From NCBI GenBank assembly GCA_947172415.1, contig OX359192.1, forward strand, positions 126,501 to 190,500: a DNA stretch of 64,000 bases, read 5' to 3'. The translations under genes were made by a program, and so were the position numbers. Origin of the DNA: Chondrosia reniformis. Taxonomy: Eukaryota > Porifera > Demospongiae > Chondrillida > Chondrillidae. The notes beneath the pieces were generated by a model, which saw only the letters and a list, made by a program, of their open reading frames with translations, ran no database searches and was not told the origin of the DNA. Below, in pieces: positions 3,173 through 51,530 of the stretch (position 1 is its first letter; the number at the start of each line of letters is the position of its first letter).

Positions 3173-6100
3173 CTAAAAGTCAGTGATTGAAGTTGGTCCA
3201 TCCTCAACTGTCGGCTTCTTATCCTTCTTATTACCTGATACAATATCATCAATACGAAGCAACAAAATGGCCGTCTACAGAGAGAAAGGGAGGGAGGTGG
3301 GATCATAATTAGAGTACAAAGGTCACCAAGCTGACCCACTTCAATTGCACTCTTGTACGTTTGCACTTTCACAGCCAGTGGATCCCACACTCCGAGTTCC
3401 TTCATGTCTGCTACGACGCCTCTCTCCCCATCTATCCCCCAGGTGCTATTCCCTTGTGTAGCATGTTTGGCCTATTATTAGAACAATAGTCACTGATATT
3501 CAGGGTAACCAGAGGAGGAGTGGTCTCTAAGCCCCACCAACTTACCCTGAGAGCTGTGAGAACTCGAATAGAGTTGCCTCCACAATTCTGTATTAGGGTC
3601 CGCGGGATCACTTCAAGGGCTCTAGCCACAGCCCTGTACGGCCACTGCTGGACTCCAGCCACACTCTTGGCTTTATCATTTAGGACCTGAGCTAATGCCA
3701 TTTCTGCAGCTCCGCCTCCAGGTAATAAGTAGGGATCTACCATTATATTTCTGGCCACCTGCATGGCATCTAACAGATTTCTCTCAATCTATAGAGACAT
3801 GCAGCAAATAGCAAATGCCATACAAAGTGCCAGTCAGTATACTAGCTATAAAACATTGATATACAGAGTTATACAAACCTCATCCACTGATAGTTATACT
3901 AAGATATACAGAGTTATACAAACCTCATCCACTGATAATTATACATTGATATACAGAGTTATACAAACCTCATCCACTGATAGTTATACTAAGGTATACA
4001 GAGTTATACAAACCTCATTTAAAATGTCTTTGCTGGCTCCCCGTAGCACAATTGTACAAGCCTTAGGATCCTTGCACTGCACAAGATATGTGAAGTAATC
4101 ATCACCAATCTTCTTTATCTCAAACAAACCACAACCAGTTCCAATATCTGCCTCCTTCAGCTCATCCGTTCTGTTCACTATACGAGCTCCTACTGCCCTG
4201 TATTAGAGGAAGACACACTTTATAGCAGATGTGCTAACCAGAAGAAGAAATTGCTAACTGGGCCTAAGTAGGGATAGGCCACCATTTGGTTACGCAATCA
4301 CTGTTTATGGACTGACCGTGCCATTCTATTGTTGTCTGTCTTTTTGACTCTTCTGATGCAAGAAATGTTGTGTTTCAGTAGAAAGTGTTGCGCAAGGTCC
4401 GACACACCTTTTTCTGTTATGACCAAGTCTGGCTTCACGGCAATGATGTCATCGCACAGCTTACGAACATAGTCCTCCTCCAACTGAAGAATCTTGGCAA
4501 AGTCTTCTTCATGCTTGATTTCAATATTTGTCTGATTGAGACGAGACACATGCATTTAGCTGACATTGCACACTTGTCTATTAAGGGAAGTCCCCCACCA
4601 GTTCTTACCATGCTTTCTCCCTTCTTAAACTCCAATGTGCAGTCCAGAAGCACTATTCTAGGATTCTCAATTCTCCTAAAGTTGTAAGAAACAACATCAA
4701 CTGATGTCCAACTCGACAGCTAAGAAGTGTAAGGTACATACCTTCTCATTTTAGCGTGAACCACATCTTTACCGACCATTACTCCGTTCAGGACACAGCA
4801 ATCTTCAATGGCACCTCCAGGAATCTTCTCTATCCTTGCATAGCGCTTGATGTCAATCTCCTTTCGACCATTCTCTTCTAAAGTAACTGTCCTTACAGCA
4901 TTCAGTGCTATCTCACAAGCTAAACTGGACCTGATATAGTAGTGAGGGAAAGTGGAGTGGAGGGGAGGGGAGGGGGATAGAGAGTGGAGGGGAGGGGGAT
5001 AGAGAGTGGAGGGGAGGGGGATAGAGAGTGGAGGGGAGAGGGAGAGGGATAGAGAGTGGAGGGGAGAGGGAGGGGGATAGAGAGTGGAGGGGAGGGGAGG
5101 GGGATAGAGAGTGGAGGGGAGGGGGATAGAGAGTGGAGGGGAGAGGGAGAGGGATAGAGAGTGGAGGGGAGGGGGATAGAGAGTGGAGGGGAGAGGGATA
5201 GAGAGTGGAGGGGAGGGGGATAGAGAGTGGAGGGGAGGGGGATAGAGAGTGGAGGGGAGAGGGAGGGGGATAGAGAGTGGAGGTGAGGGGGATAGAGAGT
5301 GGAGGGGAGGGGGATAGAGAGTGGAGGGGAGAGGGAGGGGGATAGAGAGTGGAGGGGAGAGGGAGGGGGATAGAGAGTGGAGGGGAGAGGGAGGGGGATA
5401 GAGAGTGGAGGGGAGAGGGAGGGGGATAGAGAGTGGAGGGGAGAGGGAGGGGGATAGAGAGTGGAGGGGAGAGGGAGGGGGATAGAGAGTGGAGGGGAGA
5501 GGGAGGGGGATAGAGAGTGGAGGGGAGAGGGAGGGGGATAGAGAGTGGAGGGGAGAGGGAGGGGGATAGAGAGTGGAGGGGAGAGGGAGGGGGATAGAGA
5601 GTGGAGGGGAGAGGGAGGGGGATAGAGAGTGGAGGGGAGAGGGAGGGGGATAGAGAGTGGAGGGGAGAGGGAGGGGGATAGAGAGTGGAGGTGAGGGAGA
5701 GGGGGATAGAGAGTGGAGGGGAGAGGGAGGGGGATAGAGAGTGGAGGGGAGAGGGAGGGGGATAGAGAGTGGAGGGGAGAGGAAGACGGAGATGACAATT
5801 ACTGACTAACCACTAACCATTTCTTTAAGAATTTTGTTCCAATTGTACTGTTAATAACATTAATAACTTGTTCTTTATTTTCTAAATCAACTTTCACACT
5901 AATAAATAAAACGATATATATAATCAGGTATCACTTGTTGTCATAGTAACACTTACCTCAAATTGTCCTTGGCATGTGCCACTAGGTCGTCCAAGGCCTG
6001 CCTGAAAGCAGCTATGATAACAGTCGGATGCATCTGCTGTTCCAGGAATGGTTCAGCTACCGTGAGCATCTCACCAGCTGTAAGGGGAACAGGAAGTGCT

Positions 6101-6816
6101 TGATTGACAGGAAGTGCATCATGTGAACATGCTCACCAAGGACTATGACAGAGGTGGTACCATCGCCCACTTCCTCGTCCTGTGTTCGACTTATCTCAAT
6201 AATGGACTTGGCAGCAGGGTGTTGCACCTGTATCTACAGGGGGCGGGGCAGGGGGAGGAGTAGGAGGGCCAAACCAACAACCAGAAATGGCTTACTTCTC
6301 TTAAAATTGCATTTCCATCATTGGTCATCACAATCCCTCCCATAGGGTCCATTAACATCTACACACACACAAACACAACTGATGACACACACAAACACAA
6401 GTGGATGGATTGCACACCTTTAGCATTGCTCTGGGTCCTAGACAGGTTCTGATGACATCTGCAATGGTCTGAGTGACATACAGAACAGAACAGGTAAACT
6501 ATCCAGTCTACACTGCACAGCTGCTATCACGCACACACAAACGCTAGATATAGCAGTCATCAACAAATTAACACTTCAGAAATGTTCTCTAGAATTGCAG
6601 ACGGCTCTAATTTTTAGATCGCTAAGCGCATACCTTTGCTGCCTGAATATTCCCTAACTGCGCCTTCCTACCAGTCTCGCGCTTCGTATTCGCATCTACG
6701 GGGGAAATCAAGTTAACAGTGCCGTAGCTTGCATGGTGGAGGAGACGCGAGCATTCTGCCCTTCCAAAACTACACTCACTTAGCACCAGTACTGGACCGG
6801 GGCCACCTCGATGCAT
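3173..6816 (-). CDS. CCT3: T-complex protein 1 subunit gamma (CCT3)
   Basis: Subunit gamma of the cytosolic TRiC/CCT chaperonin, which folds actin, tubulin and other proteins using ATP. Fourteen exons join in frame (6780-6816, 6634-6695, 6418-6468, 6296-6358, 6137-6233, 5957-6077, 5818-5898, 4742-4930, 4609-4675, 4317-4531, 4014-4197, 3546-3788, 3340-3471, 3173-3274) to give 547 residues; human CCT3 has 545. Group II chaperonin motifs are present: [31 protein letters not shown] and [19 protein letters not shown]-type and WPYRAVA segments are gamma-specific. The start is the ATG of [12 protein letters not shown]. The small exon 5818-5898 (VKVDLENKE...) falls outside every long reading frame but is needed for continuity. 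Two introns carry minisatellites (see repeats). The gene diverges from RPL36. Confidence 0.97.
3861..4016 (-). repeat. 45-bp minisatellite (4 copies) that contains the CCT3 splice donor
   Basis: Four copies start at about 3861, 3906, 3951 and 3996. Each contains the plus-strand string TTATACAAACCTCAT, which on the minus strand is ATGAG|GTTTGTATAA. In the last copy this is the real donor of the CCT3 exon 4014-4197. Confidence 0.85.
4948..5785 (-). repeat. Purine-rich minisatellite in a CCT3 intron
   Basis: About 840 bp of GGGGATAGAGAGTGGAGG units, each followed by a variable run of GGAGAGGGA blocks. It fills most of the intron between exons 4742-4930 and 5818-5898. It ends about 20 nt from the acceptor, on the upstream (intron) side of exon 4742-4930. 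The long pseudo-ORF across it is only a Ser/Pro/Leu readout of the repeat. Confidence 0.95.
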
Positions 6817-42690: not shown

Positions 42691-45423
42691 ATGGCGTCCG
42701 ATCCTTTGTTCGAAGTACGAAATGCCTTTTTCATCGGAAACTACCAACACAGTATTACTGAAGGACAGAAATTAAAGGTAGCTCATCTATTGCTAGATTG
42801 ACTGCTTTTATTACAAATCCCTAACTCTGTAATCAATAGGGTCTAAACCAGGAACAGAAACTCGAAAGAGACTTACTTCTGTACCGTTCCTATGTAGCTC
42901 AAGTGAGTCGGAATAGTAAATCTTTCTGTATATATATTATGTATAGATCAGACGTACTTTCCTTTACCTAACTATACATTATAGTGACTCATGGACCCAG
43001 CTTGGCCTAGTACTGCCTTTTTAGTTTATAGCATGTCTCACTTTTATTATTATATTGTTCGTGATCTTACAATAACCACTCCTCCTAATGTATGCATTGA
43101 TCACTAACCTAACATATCAGATTCTGCTTAATATCTTGTGTTCATACTTAGCGAAAGTACGGTATCGTGTTGGATGAAGTTAGTTCAGTCTCACCAGACG
43201 AGCTGCAGGCGGTGAGACTGCTGGCAGAGTACCTCAGTTCTCCTGCAAACAAGTAAGTTTTGCCTCATGACCTGCTGCTGGTCTCGGATAACCAGACCAC
43301 TATCCTAAACAAAATGGAGGCAAGATAGCGGTCTGGCTACACGAGACTAACCTACTGCAGTTGAGTTCTCTAATGTGATGCACCTCAGGGCTGCCGTCAT
43401 CAAGAAGGTGGAGACTAAACTCACAGCTGGAGTGGATGTGTCCAATGATGTGTTTCTGATCATGGCTGCCTCAATATACTATTTGGAGATGCAGTACGAC
43501 CAGACCCTACGAGTGCTTAACCAATCAGATTCATTAGAAGGGTACGTCAGTAGCCATTTTGTGGTCTGTAGTGTGTGTTGAGTGCTTTCCATATATAGGC
43601 ATGCTTTGAGGGTCCAGACATTGTTGGCAATGTCCAGACTGGATCTGGCAAAGTGAGTCCTTTGCTAAGTACGTAATGAGGCTGCCATTCCACCCTCCAC
43701 CCCTGGTGTAGGAAAGAGGTTAAGGCCATGCAGGAGAAGGATGATGACGCAACACTTACACAACTTGCACTAGCATGGTTCAACATGGGAGTCGTGAGTC
43801 ACCTGGTGTGTAGCCTGGGTGGGGCTGAGCCTCTGCCAGTGTGTAGCCTGGGTGGGGCTGAGCCTCTGCCAGTGTGTAGCCTGGGTGGGGCTGAGCCTCT
43901 GCCAGTGTGTAGCCTGGGTGGGGCTGAGCCTCTGCCAGTGTGTAGCCTGGGTGGGGCTGAGCCTCTGCCAGTGTGTAGCCTGGGTGGGGCTGAGCCTCTG
44001 CCAGTGTGTAGCCTGGGTGGGGCTGAGCCTCTGCCAGTGTGTAGCCTGGGTGGGGCTGAGCCTCTGCAAGTGTGTAGCCTGGGTGGGGCTGAGCCTCTGC
44101 CAGTGTGTAGCCTGGGTGGGGTTGAGCCTCTGCCAGTGTGTAGCCTGGGTGGGGCTGAGCCTCTGCCAGTGTGTAGCCTGGGTGGGGCTGAGCCTCTGCA
44201 AGTGTGTAGCCTGGGTGGGGCTGAGCCTCTGCCAGTGTGTAGCCTGGGTGGGGCTGAGCCTCTGCCAGTGTGTAGCCTGGGTGGGGCTGAGCCTCTGCCA
44301 GTGTGTAGCCTGGGTGGGGCTGAGCCTCTGCCAGTGTGTAGCCTGGGTGGGGCTGAGCCTCTGCCAGTGTGTAGCATAATAGCCTTAACCAACTTGTATA
44401 ACTTGTGTTCAGGGTGGAGAGAAGTATCAAGATGCCTACTATATATTTCAAGAAATGGCTGACAAGACCACTGCCACTCCTCTACTGCTGAACGGACAGG
44501 TATGTATCTTACCCCCTTTACTGAGGTAGTTGTTGCCAGTGTTCCAATGGTTACAGGCTGCCTGCTACATTCATCAAGGAAAGTACGATGATGCTGAAAC
44601 ATCCTTACAGGAAGCAATTGCTAAAGTATGTACGTTGTCAATTTGTATACAGCCACTCATCCATCCAATGATTTATGTATGTAGGATAGTAACAATGCAG
44701 AGACATTGATTAATCTAATTGTTGTAAGTCAACATTTGCAGAAACCATCTGAAGTGAGTGAACTGTTATTTCACAACCTGTCAACCTAACCTTAAATGAA
44801 TCTCGTCTATTTTAGGTCTGCAATCGTTACATGACTACTCTAAAGGACAGTCATCCAAATCATGCCTTTGTCAAAGACTACATAACTAAGGTATAGTTTG
44901 CTAAACAAGAGAATGCTGTTACTATGTTTGACTCTCCCTCTCCCTCTCCCCTCTCCCCTCTCCCCTCTCTCCCTCTCCCCTCTCCCCTCTCCCCTCTCCC
45001 TCTCCCCTCTCCCCTCTCCCTTTCCGCCTCCCCCTCTCCCTCTCCGCCTCCCCCTCTCCCCTCTCCCCTCTCCCCTCTCCCTCTCCCTCTCACTCACTCC
45101 CTCTCCCCTCTCCCCTCTCCCCTCACCCCTCTCCCCTCTCCCCTCTCCCCTCTCCCCTCTCCCCTCTCCCCTCTCCCTCTCCCCTCTCCCCTCTCCCTTT
45201 CCGCCTCCCCCTCTCCCTCTCCGCCTCCCCCTCTCCCCTCTCCCCTCTCCCCTCTCCCTCTCCCTCTCACTCACTCCCTCTCCCCTCTCCCCTCTCCCCT
45301 CTCCCTCTCTCCCCCCCTCTCACTTACTCACTCCTTTTCAACTCACACACTCTTTACTTCTTTTTATGATAGGAAAATGAATTTCAAAAGTTGGCTCAGC
45401 AGCTGCAACTAGTTCAACCATAA
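42691..45423 (+). CDS. COPE: Coatomer subunit epsilon (COPE)
   Basis: Epsilon subunit of the COPI coat, which works in Golgi-to-ER retrograde traffic; it is an alpha-solenoid of TPR-like repeats that binds alpha-COP. Eleven exons (42691-42777, 42840-42902, 43152-43252, 43389-43541, 43599-43652, 43712-43793, 44413-44499, 44557-44625, 44685-44753, 44816-44890, 45373-45423) give 296 residues; human has 308. Diagnostic stretches: [96 protein letters not shown] and [13 protein letters not shown]. The start ATG follows an AAAA context. Two introns are expanded by minisatellites (33-bp unit; CT-rich). Confidence 0.96.
43812..44377 (+). repeat. 33-bp minisatellite in COPE intron 6
   Basis: Seventeen copies of GTGTGTAGCCTGGGTGGGGC plus TGAGCCTCTGCCA. 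Because 33 is a multiple of three and no unit has a stop in several frames, both strands show long pseudo-ORFs (for example repeated [11 protein letters not shown]). The array starts about 20 nt after the donor of exon 43712-43793. Confidence 0.95.
44930..45325 (+). repeat. CCCTCTCC-type pyrimidine tract in COPE intron 10
   Basis: About 390 bp of CCCTCTCCCCTCTCC units, with a larger internal duplication of about 160 bp that includes TTTCCGCCTCCCCCTCTCCC and CTCACTCACTCC. It lies between the donor at 44891 and the acceptor at 45372. Confidence 0.92.
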
Positions 45424-45637: not shown

Positions 45638-48600
45638 ATGTCTCCTGCACTAGTATGGGTTCTCTGCGCTATCATCCAATTTTGTCGGAGCGACAGCGTT
45701 AATTTGACACAAAAGTTAGCAGAAGATAGATCATGTACTGATTGACAAAGCATTCACCGAATGGACGTAATATCAATGTACATAATGATCATGATCGATT
45801 TGCTATTTGCAAAAGCTCTTTGCTTAACTGCAACGTTAAAATTGATTTAATCAGCAGCTTAATATTTGGACCTACGTTGGTTTATTTTTAAGTTGCCACG
45901 AAAATATTTCTAGTACTGCGCCTATCTTCTTTGTAAATCAGTGTTTTTATTATTATTATATAGCCATGTCGATGCGTATTGTAATGATGGTTCAAAGGCT
46001 GTATTCTATTTGGACTCTTCCTGTACCAGCACAACTCACTGGATGATTGCCCTGGAGGGAGGAGGGGGGTGCAGTAGCGAGGACCAGTGCATACAGCGTC
46101 TGCAAGATAGAACTGGGAGCACCAGTGTACTAACATCTTCACTTCCACTTAGACGATTTGTGAACATTAAAGGTAGAAGTATTTTGTCATCAAATGCAAA
46201 AGAAAATCCACCTTTTCATGACTTTTGTCATGTATTAGTCCCATACTGCAGCAGTGACTTTTGGTTGGGTAATACTAGTACCTCCTCCACTTCCTCTGAT
46301 CATTATCAAGGTGCCAGAATCTTTGAAGAAGTCATCACAAAGTTATTGCAACATCATGGACTAAACACATCTAAGGAAGTTGTGCTCTTTGGGTTGAGTG
46401 CTGGAGGAGTGGGAGCCCTGAACCAGTTTCCTTGGTTGTCCTCCCAGCTGCCTCCTGATGCCCATTTGTCCCTCATTATAGACTCTGGCTGGTTTATCAA
46501 CTTCAAAGACGTCCTTAAGGACTTGTACTCATCTCCTCCATTTGTGCCTGTAGCCCCTTTGTGTAGGATATTTGTTGAAGGTGTTCCTTGCTGTGCTGTG
46601 CCAAGTTGTGTGCTCCTCAACTATAACTCAACCCTTCCTCCAATATTCTTCATATCCAGCAGGTACGACGCATACCTCCTCCAGTATGTCCTGGAGAACG
46701 AGATTCCAGTTGACAGTATCAATCAAAATGCTGAAAATCTAAGTACCACAAATAGCCTAATCAATGTGGCTATAAACACTGTATACTCCTATGGTTCAGC
46801 CTATGTCACATCTGCCAAAGCTGTACAGCAGTACACAAGAACTGTCTCCTTCTTTGTTCCATCTTGCAGCCAGCATAACTACATGCCAACCAGCTCCCTT
46901 TGGGATGTGGGTGGTCCATTGAGGGAAGCCGTTGTTGAGACTGTTGTAGTTGGTGGAATTGTGAACTTCACCAATGCTATTAATCCATCTTTGTGGAGGA
47001 ACATTCAGATCAATGGTACAACCTTGCTGGCAGCCCTGACAACCTGGTACCAAAACAAAACAGAGCTCATCTCATTGTTTGACTCCTGTCAAGTTCTACT
47101 TTGCAATGAGCACTGCCAGGACAGTGCTCTCCTGATACAACCAAGAAAAGGCTTTGAAGCCTGGGAGTGGGTGTGTGTAGTAGTAGCCATCTTGCTGGCC
47201 TTTGGACCTGCTGTACCAAAAGTGATCTTGTACATCAATCAAAAATACCTCTTTCATCAGCAGAAACTGTACATTAGATCAAGAACAGTTACTAAACCAG
47301 GAAAACATAGAACTTTGCCTGCCAGTGTCTCCTGCAGTCAAATCAGTTACACAGTTAATGGTAGCCTATCTTGGTGTGAGACTGGCAGACCAGTGAGCAA
47401 GAGGAGGATTAGGACGGTCCTTGTTCAACCTGTTGAGGAGGAAGAGATCCCTCGTCCTGCTACTCCAAAGGGAAGAGATAAAGTGATAATTAACAATGTG
47501 AATCTGTACATTAATCCAGGAGAACTGGTTGCTATAATGGGACCGTCCGGAAGTGGAAAGACCACATTACTAGACGTCATCTTAGGTAGAAGAACTAGTG
47601 GAACAGTTGAGGTAAGACAGTTTTGCTAATGACAGGCATTGCTTGTTTAGCTATGGGTAGATGAATCAAATGATAGTAATATTGAGTGGCTACTTTACTC
47701 AGAAGATTCTAAAGAGTTTGTTTTTAAGATTCTTTATGTATAGCTGTTCTGCCGTATACATTCTGCAGGGTTTTTAGAGGGTTTGAGGGAGGGCATTCCC
47801 CCCTGAAAATGGTTTTGCCCCCCCCCCCCTGAGCTTTACTTAGCCAATTTAAGCTAAATAATTGAAAATTTTCAATTATTTAGGAAATCAATGTCATGTA
47901 AATCCAGAATTTCTGGATATGTTATAAACTTCAAACATACGTATGGATCACTACATGTTTGTAGGGTGATATATACATTCAGGGGATTCCCCTTAGTGCC
48001 ATGAAGGAGTGGTTTAGAAACAATTCTGCCTACGTACGTCAGCTGACCATTCCATACTATACTGAGCTCACTGTGAGGCAGAATTTGCTTCTGGCAGCCA
48101 ACATGCAAGTTCCTCCTCGGACACCAACTGAGCTCTTATTTGAGAGAGTGGAACAAGTCATATCTGAAGTAAGTAAGTGTCAGGAGCTCTAACATTAGAG
48201 CTATGGACTTAAACCCTCAATACTTTTGTGCATCCATAGTGTATGGTAATCTTACTGTAGACACATGTGCGAATATACGTAGATAAAGCTTTACAGAGCT
48301 GATAATATTGCTAGCTCAGCAATTTAGCTACCTGCCTAATATGTTGGAGTTAGCCATGCTTCATTAAATGATACTGTATGCCCGGTGGACTACATATACC
48401 CCATATGTATATGATTTGATATCCTTACAAATAGACCGGTTTGCAGAAGGTGGCAGACATTCCAGTTGGTGAAGCTACTGGACTCGGCTTGAGTGGAGGG
48501 CAAGTGAGAGCCATTGTATATCCTTGTGCACTCTAGAAATTGGAGTGCCAATAATGTGCAATGGACTATGTCCATCAATTAGATTTATTATTTCGATGGA

Positions 48601-51530
48601 ACATATGCATACAATATTATTATTAATCGTCTTGTACTTTCCTTCGGTTGAATTTTATAGAAGAAGCGATTGTGTATTGCTCTTCAAATGCTAAAGATGC
48701 CCAGTGTGCTATTCTTGGATGAACCGACAACAGGTACACTGACCTGATTAATTACAGGGGTTTCCCCTAGTAATTGACATGTAAATGTTTTCATAGGGCA
48801 AGTATGAAAATTATTCAAATTGTAAATCTACTTTTAATTTCTTAAAAATTAGTTTTTTTTAATTTAGAGTATTGTCTACTATATTTATGTATGCGCATAA
48901 TTAGGTTTGGATGCTGCCACTTCAAAGGAATTGCTGGAGATGCTTTACGTGTTAACACAGGATGGGCACAGTGTTCTGCTGACAATACATCAACCTCGGA
49001 TTGAAATATTTCATATGTTCCACAAAATCATATTACTGACTGAGGGAGAAATAGCATATTTTGGTTCACCTTTTGGTGCTTATAGTTACTTTAAAGACAC
49101 TCTCTCAGCCAAAAATGGCTCAAACATTAAAGTATGTATAATGACTATTATGGCAGACCTGAAGCTTGTGATGTTCGGCTCTATAAATCATTTTACTTGC
49201 AGTTGGAGGGATGTAAGAGTGCGGCAGATGCACTTTTGGACATTTTAAACAGGAAGGATCATCAGAGAGCATTAGTGGAGGCTTACAAAGAGAATGGGTT
49301 TCCTCAAGCTGTGCAGCATGCCATTGATCTGTCCCAGCAGTCAATAGCCCACACTCCAACCACCACACACATGTAAGCAGACACGCCCACCACCACACAC
49401 ATGTAAGCAGACACGCCCACCACCACACACATGTAAGCAGACACGCCCACCACCACACACATAAGCAGACATGCCCACCACCACACACATAAGCAGACAT
49501 GCCCACCACCACACATGTGAGTAGACACGCCCACCACCACACACATAAGCAGACACGCCCACCACACACATGTAAGCAGATACACCCACCACCACACATG
49601 TGAGTAGACACGCCCACCACCACACATGTAAGCAGATACGCCCACCACCACACATGTAAGCAGACATGCCCACCACCACACATGTGAGTAGACACGCCCA
49701 CCACCACACACATGTGAGTAGACACGCCCACCACCACACATGTGAGTAGACACGTCCACCACCACACATGTGAGTAGACACGCACACATGTGAGTAGACA
49801 CGCCCACATGTGAGTAGACACACCCACCTCGCATACAAGACTGGTACCGTTTCTCTAATACATATCATTACAGTATACCATTAACATTTACTATTCATCA
49901 ATATATACACCATTTGGTGAAGCAGATTGAATTTAATAAATGCTTTAACTTTACATTCTCCCTTTCTCTGTTTAGTCAAAACCCAGGTATTTGGAAGCGT
50001 TTGCTCTCATTGGAGAGCAGGACCTCGCTACGTCAGACATTTATTCAGATAATCTACATACCAGTGGTGTTTTTAACTGTTGCCACCTTACTCTGTGAGT
50101 CACATTCAGGTCACATGATAGTCACCTTTGACCCCTACTCTCCTCATTTCAGGCACAGTGTACTATCCAGCAAACAGCTCGGCTAAGGTAGTGGCTGTAG
50201 TGTGTTTGACCACCTGTTGCCCTTCGCTTCTGATGAGTTCCATGGTAATGGGACTACTGCTCAAACCTCTCACCATCTTTGATTTGGAACACTCCGATGG
50301 TATATCCTCTGCTCACGATCTTGTGCTGCAGGTTTTTATCAGGATGGCGGCCATTTCTTGTATACCTTTAGCCATTTGTATGTTGATAATATCCTTGGTC
50401 ATATATGAAAGTCGTGATCCAGTTGTCATCACTATGGTGATACTCTATTTCCTCCTGGCTAACCTAGCTTGGATCACAATATTCATTTTCATTACAGTCA
50501 CCTTTCCCAGCATCACTCACCGGATCTGTCCTCTGGCTGCAGCTCTGGGTAGCTTCTTTTGTGGTTTCATCATCCCCAGGAGCCAGTTGCCACTGTACTA
50601 CATTTGGATCTTGTACATTGACCCATCTTACTATGCCTTCTCTGGAACTGCATTCACTGTACTGGGGACCAGGGAGTTCCAATGCCCCAACTACAAGACC
50701 AATATTGAATGCTATGTTGAGTCTGGACTGGCCTCAATTTACTACTTTGGATTGACAGATATTTGGCCATCCCTCCATCTAGTGTACCTAATAGGGTTTG
50801 TATTTCTTGGGATAGTGATGGCCATATTGTCACTGAACCTCAAGCTGTACTATCCAGTTCTTAGAGAGAGGATTAATATGATGAAAAAACGATGGGTGAA
50901 CAAGTAAGAGTTGCATGGCCTTACATGTGCATTAGGTGTAAGTTCTATGAGAAATGGTGACCTGCAGTAGAGCCAACTTTACTGTGATAGTACATTATCA
51001 GATTTTAGTATATAGCTCATTTATTTTCATAATTATTATCACTTTTTGCCTTTTGTGTAATTTATAGAGGGAAACCATTTGGCTCTAAAGTTTGTTTAGC
51101 TGCTACTGTGTCAGACACTCATTCAACTGCCCAAAGGAGACACAAGATTGTGCACGAGTTCAATTCTCAGGAAAGGGACAGCGTAAGTGAAGAGGAAGTT
51201 GACTTGCTTCAACAGCAAATGAATAACCTTGATGTGGACAGCATTATGAGTCAAGTGGAAATGGTTGATATGATAATAAATGAGGAGGATAAGATGAGAG
51301 ACTGTAAGGACCTGCTGCATAGGAGAGAAGAGAAGATTAATCTAGAGCTAGCTACTCATGTAGTGAACTGGATACAATCTGATGATGACTGTGTCTTACA
51401 ACATGAAGTAGGCTTAGTCAATCGGAATACTTCTCTTAGACCACAAAAGACTTTCAAACAAATTTCTCATAAACCAAGTATCAAGGATACAACTGACTTG
51501 CATGAAACAACTAGTCCATTTTGTAACTAA
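45638..51530 (+). CDS. ABCG-type half-transporter with N-terminal NOTUM/pectin-acetylesterase domain
   Basis: Proposed exons: 45638-45734 (signal peptide MSPALVWVLCAIIQF; its junction to the next exon is uncertain), 45942-47611, 47965-48168, 48435-48503, 48661-48733, 48905-49131, 49203-49372, 49976-50094, 50153-50903, 51068-51530; 1280 residues if all are used. The second exon encodes a NOTUM/PAE-family hydrolase: ALEGGGGC, VPYCSSDFW, nucleophile in GLSAGG (Ser 46397-46399), DSGWF, Asp in SRYDAYLL (46677-46679) and His in CSQHNYM (46874-46876). One transmembrane helix follows (VCVVVAILLAFGPAVPKVIL). The nucleotide-binding domain has Walker A GPSGSGKTT, signature GLSGGQKKRL, Walker B VLFLDEPTTGLD and H-loop TIHQPR. 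A six-helix ABC2-type membrane domain (YIWILYIDPSYYAFSG...FTVLGTREFQC) comes next, then a ~150-residue acidic, helical cytoplasmic tail. The hydrolase should face outside. Substrate unknown. Confidence 0.87.
47800..47835 (+). repeat. Poly-C tract in ABCG intron
   Basis: A run of 13 Cs (about 47818-47830) preceded by CCCCCC, inside the intron between exons 45942-47611 and 47965-48168. No function inferred. Confidence 0.6.
49355..49825 (+). repeat. ~30-bp minisatellite made from an ABCG exon/donor junction
   Basis: About 16 imperfect copies of CACCACCACACACATGTAAG plus CAGACACGCC (28-31 bp). The first copy is the end of exon 49203-49372 and its donor (CACACAT|GTAAGCAG). Many later copies keep a donor-like CAT|GTAAGCAG or CAT|GTGAGTAG. 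Confidence 0.93.

Follow-up and report, generated by a model that had tools for sequence, protein, structure and literature searches.

The gene described here lies on the forward strand at positions 45638–51530 of the window, a 64,000-nucleotide stretch of the Chondrosia reniformis genome (contig C4, positions 126501–190500), whose numbering is used below. Ten exons, the boundaries of which were picked by hand from the sequence, form one open frame of 1262 amino acids, and all nine introns of this spliced model are of the GT–AG type. The encoded protein contains, in this order, a signal peptide, a NOTUM/pectinacetylesterase (PAE) domain, a transmembrane (TM) helix, an ABC ATPase, an ABC2 membrane domain, and a charged tail. 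The features are as follows:

45638–45714, forward: exon 1, signal peptide (MSPALVWVLCAIIQFCRSDS...), from the gene model, the signal peptide by inspection
45964–47611, forward: exon 2, esterase ectodomain, TM helix, cytosolic linker, and Walker A in a single frame, from the frame, Pfam, and the gene model
45964–46903, forward: NOTUM/pectinacetylesterase domain (PF03283, residues about 25–339), from Pfam; all eight matched PDB sequences are NOTUM
46397–46399, forward: catalytic Ser171 (GLSAGG), aligned to GSSAGG of NOTUM, invariant in 5/5 rows of alignment A2
46667–46669, forward: proposed catalytic Asp261 (SRYDAY), invariant in 3/3 fusions and 5/5 A2 rows
46874–46876, forward: proposed catalytic His330 (SCSQH), invariant in 3/3 fusions and 4/5 A2 rows, the bacterial row having a gap
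47084–47119, forward: cysteine motif SCQVLLCNEHCQ, equivalent to DSCPWPHCNPSCP of NOTUM by alignment
47171–47227, forward: extra N-terminal TM helix (residues 429–447), Kyte–Doolittle mean 2.37, with a hydrophobic stretch at the equivalent place in both paralogs
47540–47566, forward: Walker A, GPSGSGKTT, from the gene model and motif scan
47965–48168, forward: exon 3, ATPase domain, from the gene model
48447–48503, forward: exon 4, with the LSGGQ ABC signature at its 3' end, from the gene model and motif scan
48661–48733, forward: exon 5, Walker B (VLFLDEP), from the gene model and motif scan
48905–49131, forward: exon 6, switch histidine (TIHQP), from the gene model and motif scan
49203–49372, forward: exon 7, linker from the ATPase to the membrane domain, from the gene model
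49976–50094, forward: exon 8, first hydrophobic stretch of the membrane domain, from the gene model
50153–50903, forward: exon 9, rest of the ABC2 membrane domain (PF01061), Pfam 35.4 bits with a cut-off of 26.9
51068–51530, forward: exon 10, charged tail and stop, from the gene model

The initial annotation had placed the hydrolase and the ABCG half-transporter in a single gene, in frame and within the same 1.6-kb exon, with intact Ser (GLSAGG), Asp (SRYDAY), and His (CSQHNY) motifs. The three motifs are all present, and the joining of the two parts is confirmed by the reading frame, Pfam, and the spliced model. The hydrolase and Walker A are both located inside the 1648-bp exon 2. The stop-to-stop frame 45914–47629 (571 aa) carries the esterase, the helix, and Walker A; Pfam assigns it 171 bits (E 5.2e-50) for the PAE family, the cut-off of which is 26.6, and 42.9 bits (E 9.7e-11) for the beginning of ABC_tran, with a cut-off of 25. 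The Pfam search of the spliced protein, suggested in the initial annotation as a check, placed PAE (residues 25–339, E 3.3e-49, 168.3 bits) and ABC_tran (residues 536–686, 93 bits) above their cut-offs, while the score of ABC2_membrane (residues 852–1024) was 26.4 bits, slightly below the cut-off, as against the score listed above for exon 9 alone. The last 153 residues contain 27 D+E and 18 K+R, and no Pfam family was found in the exon 10 tail at E up to 0.01.

Several tandem arrays can be noted in and near the gene. The start of intron 7 (49360–49827) is an array of 28-bp and 20-bp units repeating the end of exon 7 and the splice donor. It contains 14 copies of CATGT[A/G]AG, the first of which is the donor used, and three copies with ACATAAG, which lack GT; translation continued beyond the first donor meets an immediate stop. 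Upstream of the gene, there are a 33-bp array of about 17 copies with 98% matches (43806–44375) and a CT-rich array with a higher period of 177 bp (44932–45314).

In the ectodomain, the catalytic Ser was assigned by alignment with NOTUM, and the Asp and His by their invariance in the family alignments. The esterase matched eight distinct PDB sequences, with a best E of 2.7e-26 for the window protein alone and 4.1e-34 for a three-row profile. The cysteine motif is also present in PAE genes of contigs C9 and C7 and is therefore not specific. Residues 1–426 include 16 cysteines. Raw counts of glycosylation sequons are eight in 406 ectodomain residues versus three in 387 cytosolic residues of the window protein, and nine in 488 and 12 in 571 residues of the ectodomains of its paralogs, which is in keeping with a predicted extracellular location of this part. 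A structure predicted from the single sequence had a mean pLDDT of 35 and was uninformative.

The C-terminal part has the layout of a half-transporter, with one ATPase domain ahead of one membrane domain, and carries Walker A, LSGGQ, LDEP, and TIHQP. When compared with PDB, it matched animal ABCG proteins with E values of 1.6e-35 to 3.1e-41, and the best 27 of the 467 matched sequences are CDR1/Pdr5, ABCG1/2/5/8, and plant G25/G16. The hydrophobic N-terminus, the ectodomain with its sequons and cysteines, the helix at residues 429–447, the ATPase, and about six hydrophobic stretches after it suggest an arrangement with the N-terminal part outside and the ATPase inside the cell. The hydropathy scan also weakly flags residues 220–246 within the ectodomain (1.49–1.64).

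The genome scanned for relatives of this gene comprises 117,379,552 bases in 15 contigs. Searched with the PAE family, it showed 23 exon matches, spread over six contigs. With the ABC half of the window protein as query, 31 matches were obtained, the best of which outside the window are located on C2 and C8 and adjoin PAE matches. Among the six PAE regions outside the window (L009–L014, 9.9 kb each), two have a downstream ABC match, and these are the two paralogs; in L011–L014 (C9 twice, C7, and C5), no match to the window ABC half was found at E up to 0.01. Thus, two further genes on other chromosomes have the same esterase-to-ABC order. Spliced alignment produced unbroken models from the esterase to the membrane domain, 1065 aa on C2 and 1095 aa on C8, the exon edges and last residues of which are provisional because the window protein served as the alignment guide. 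Both models exceed the Pfam cut-offs for PAE (107.9 and 118 bits), ABC_tran, and ABC2_membrane (39.1 and 34.2 bits); on pieces joined by eye, ABC2_membrane scored 46.3 bits for C2 and 19.3 bits, below the cut-off, for C8. In C2 and C8, introns separate the main esterase exon from the helix exon, whereas in the window gene both lie in one exon. The C2 paralog also contains a tandem array (L010, about 5535–6117) in the intron between these two exons.

When comparing the three fusions, differences in the conservation of their domains can be noted. The ectodomain of the window protein is 37% identical to that of C8 and 36% to that of C2 (40% between C8 and C2); the corresponding values are 55%, 54%, and 56% for the ATPase and 33%, 30%, and 51% for the membrane domain. 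The stretch of helix and linker is poorly conserved, with pairwise identities of 17, 26, and 31%. The Ser, Asp, and His and the ABC motifs (Walker A, signature, Walker B, and switch His) are kept in all three proteins, so that neither half looks vestigial.

These comparisons bear on a trivial explanation, namely that two adjacent genes were merged in reading or that the assembly is in error; the initial annotation had itself named mis-assembly as a possible objection. Both parts lie within one open exon, and the equal order recurs on two other chromosomes, with 30–55% identity by domain, which makes chance or mis-assembly untenable. According to the available part of the genome note (PMC12181767), the assembly is moreover of chromosome level, made from HiFi and Hi-C data; it comprises 117.37 Mb in 14 chromosomes plus the mitochondrial genome, and its scaffold N50 is 8.46 Mb. 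Given the two paralogous loci and the shared exon, both the mis-assembly and the two-gene readings were rejected as highly improbable. The fusion is almost certainly a real gene family with at least three paralogs of this architecture in the sponge.

Phylogeny of the esterase domains joins the three fusions in one clade with support of 91/93 when bacterial rows are included and 92/91 without them, which is below the strict mark. In the tree without bacteria, C8 pairs with C2 (87/91). In the tree of ATPase segments, the fusions are not resolved as a clade (62/49), and the window protein is paired with C2 (85/89). The esterase and ATPase trees thus branch differently among the fusions, both with weak support. 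The ATPases are 41–56% identical to three short segments (about 90 residues) of other ABCG genes of the genome, and the C8 fusion shares as much identity with the segment from C3 (56%) as with its fusion partners (54–55%). With 125 residues of the C2 membrane domain as query, all five matches in the whole genome at E up to 0.01 fell in C2, C8, or the window gene on C4, and no ABC half of the fusion type lacking an esterase was found in this search. Since the trees disagree weakly, the common origin of the ABC halves rests on their identity (54–56% over the ATPase domain) and on this membrane-domain search.

Other PAE genes of the genome are also of note. About three tandem genes at C5:8205784–8212021 (L013) have motifs of the YCDGA type, unlike the NOTUM-type ones. 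Two genes, at C7:8184903–8186117 (L012) and C9:4648673–4649670 (L011), are near-identical (90% over the compared segment), and a lone PAE-matching exon is located at C9:4626473.

The initial annotation had called the ectodomain NOTUM-like, and this description can be refined. In a tree of ten rows including two bacterial ones, neither the place of the fusions nor the NOTUM grouping is resolved. The two bacterial rows were dropped as long branches and C5a and C5c were added; the resulting unrooted tree (ten rows, 189 columns) places the fusions together with human and Drosophila NOTUM, apart from the C9, C7, and C5 rows, with a split support of 96/95. Among the rows compared, the PYCSSD motif is common to NOTUM and the fusions only. 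A human NOTUM segment has the window gene as its best genome match (E 4.5e-25); of its 16 matches with E values up to 1, all those with E up to 5e-4 fall within PAE genes already recorded above. No free-standing NOTUM was found beside the fusions in this exon-wise genome search, which short exons can escape. Pairwise identity does not set the fusions apart, since human NOTUM is 38, 37, and 34% identical to C4, C8, and C2 and 39 and 40% identical to the C9 and C7 proteins. A difference from NOTUM lies in the oxyanion region. In human NOTUM, the amides of Gly126, Gly127, and Trp128 participate in the oxyanion hole, as described in the available part of PMC8172013. Gly takes the place of Trp128 in each of the three fusions and also in the other PAE rows compared from this genome, and Ser takes that of Gly126 in C8 and C2; the loop reads LEGGWYC in human NOTUM and LEGGGGC, LESGGGC, and LESGGFC in the fusions.

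A Wnt family search of the genome revealed 25 exon matches, which, judged by their positions, represent about ten loci on C3, C7, and C10. About four Wnt genes are clustered within 24 kb at C7:234714–258123. The motif CRCHGLSGSC, which we take to be the context of the Wnt acylation site, is kept in two of the four loci examined (C3 and C10), and the other two differ there. Judging by these loci, substrates of the NOTUM type probably exist in this sponge. Their presence permits Wnt deacylation by the fusion esterase, with Wnt as a candidate substrate that is unproven because of the Gly at the Trp128 position in all three fusions.

One can accordingly ask whether the fusion is simply a membrane-held Wnt deacylase, in which the ABCG part mainly positions the enzyme or moves lipid for an unrelated end. 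The 96/95 grouping with NOTUM, the shared PYCSSD, the best match of the human segment, the alignable C-terminal cysteine motif, and the Wnt loci speak for this reading. The last but one of these loses weight through the C9 and C7 genes that have the same motif, the grouping dissolves once the two bacterial rows are included, the missing Trp128 is a further difficulty, and ABC motifs intact in all three proteins are contrary to a simple anchor. We consider it fairly unlikely.

Another explanation is that the enzyme removes acetyl groups from extracellular glycans (polysaccharides of food, matrix, or symbionts) and that the ABCG half transports related compounds. The Pfam family takes its name from pectin acetylesterases, and the LEGGGGC loop is nearer those of other PAE genes (LEGGGLC, LEGGGFC, and QEGGGWC) than that of NOTUM; however, the tree without bacteria puts the domain with NOTUM and away from the genome's other PAE genes, and we regard this explanation as rather unlikely.

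We tentatively favor, at somewhat less than even chances, a model of a cell-surface deacylase working in concert with an ABCG exporter, in which export and deacylation would occur in one step. The fusion would be a membrane-tethered ectoenzyme on an ABCG half-transporter, with the NOTUM-type serine esterase outside and the ATPase and tail in the cytosol, an ABC2 membrane domain of about six helices, and one extra TM helix ahead of the ATPase. ABCG half-transporters function as pairs. Two copies, or two different paralogs, might pair in the same manner, and two esterase domains would then flank the exit. ATP would drive the movement of a hydrophobic ester, such as an O-acylated lipid, into the outer leaflet, where the esterase, held beside the exit, could strip the acyl group from the exported substrate. 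The membrane location, topology, pairing, substrate, and coupling in this scheme are all inferred. The preservation of the catalytic residues of both halves in three diverged copies argues that both activities are used.

NOTUM of animals is a secreted palmitoleoyl-protein carboxylesterase that stands alone. It has in common with the fusions a homologous esterase domain, the aligned Ser in GxSAGG, PYCSSD, and the C-terminal cysteine motif; the fusions differ in the absence of Trp128 and in carrying an in-frame helix and an ABC half. Pectin acetylesterases of plants and bacteria (PF03283) share the Pfam family and the catalytic signature, and the remaining PAE genes of this genome are separated from the fusions in the tree that lacks bacteria. 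A PAE stretch of Aureibacter has five annotated features, none of which is an ABC protein, and that of Burkholderia carries no annotation. Animal ABCG1/2/5/8 are likewise half-transporters with the ATPase first, but they lack a signal peptide, an ectodomain, and the additional N-terminal helix. Bacterial peptidase-containing ABC exporters also combine, in one fusion, an ABC exporter with an enzyme acting on the cargo; this enzyme is a cytosolic cysteine peptidase, the ABC class is different, and the likeness is in plan only, with no homology claimed. Fungal ABCG proteins of the Adp1 type are NBD–TMD half-transporters with additional sequence, most commonly EGF, according to the available part of PMC9426558. 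The fusion resembles them in layout, having an ectodomain ahead of the ATPase (by sequence, with inferred topology); their extra part is mostly an EGF domain, whereas that of the sponge fusion is a catalytic hydrolase, and the Pfam scan of the window protein found no EGF family at E up to 0.01.

No published title among the matches listed names a fusion of NOTUM or pectinacetylesterase with an ABC protein. The parts, and ABCG proteins with an extra N-terminal part, are already known; judging by the titles among these matches, it is the serine-esterase ectodomain that differs. The word Notum does not occur in the available parts of the sponge Wnt papers PMC4902976, PMC8235796, PMC5797367, PMC2688036, and PMC2000352, and those of PMC4169000 and PMC12221298 contain nothing on sponge NOTUM. 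A plasmid search gave three bacterial PAE records, and no relatives of the fusion were found in viral contigs and GTDB contigs. Because the GTDB set covers bacteria and archaea, these viral and GTDB results say nothing about other animals; the fusion may already sit unnamed in the protein databases of other sponges.

That three diverged copies have retained the catalytic residues of esterase and ABCG alike suggests long-standing selection on the pairing of the two. A bolder and rather doubtful proposal is that the NOTUM branch exists here only as an ABCG ectodomain, that the three paralogs couple lipid export to deacylation, and that the free NOTUM of other animals lost the transporter or the sponge line gained one. 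If this is true, Wnt deacylation may have started as, or been recruited into, a lipid-export machine. The fusion bears on the origin of NOTUM, which is both a regulator of Wnt and a drug target; with an extracellular hydrolase covalently attached to an ABCG pump, it would offer a directly testable example, in an animal, of export coupled to processing at the surface.
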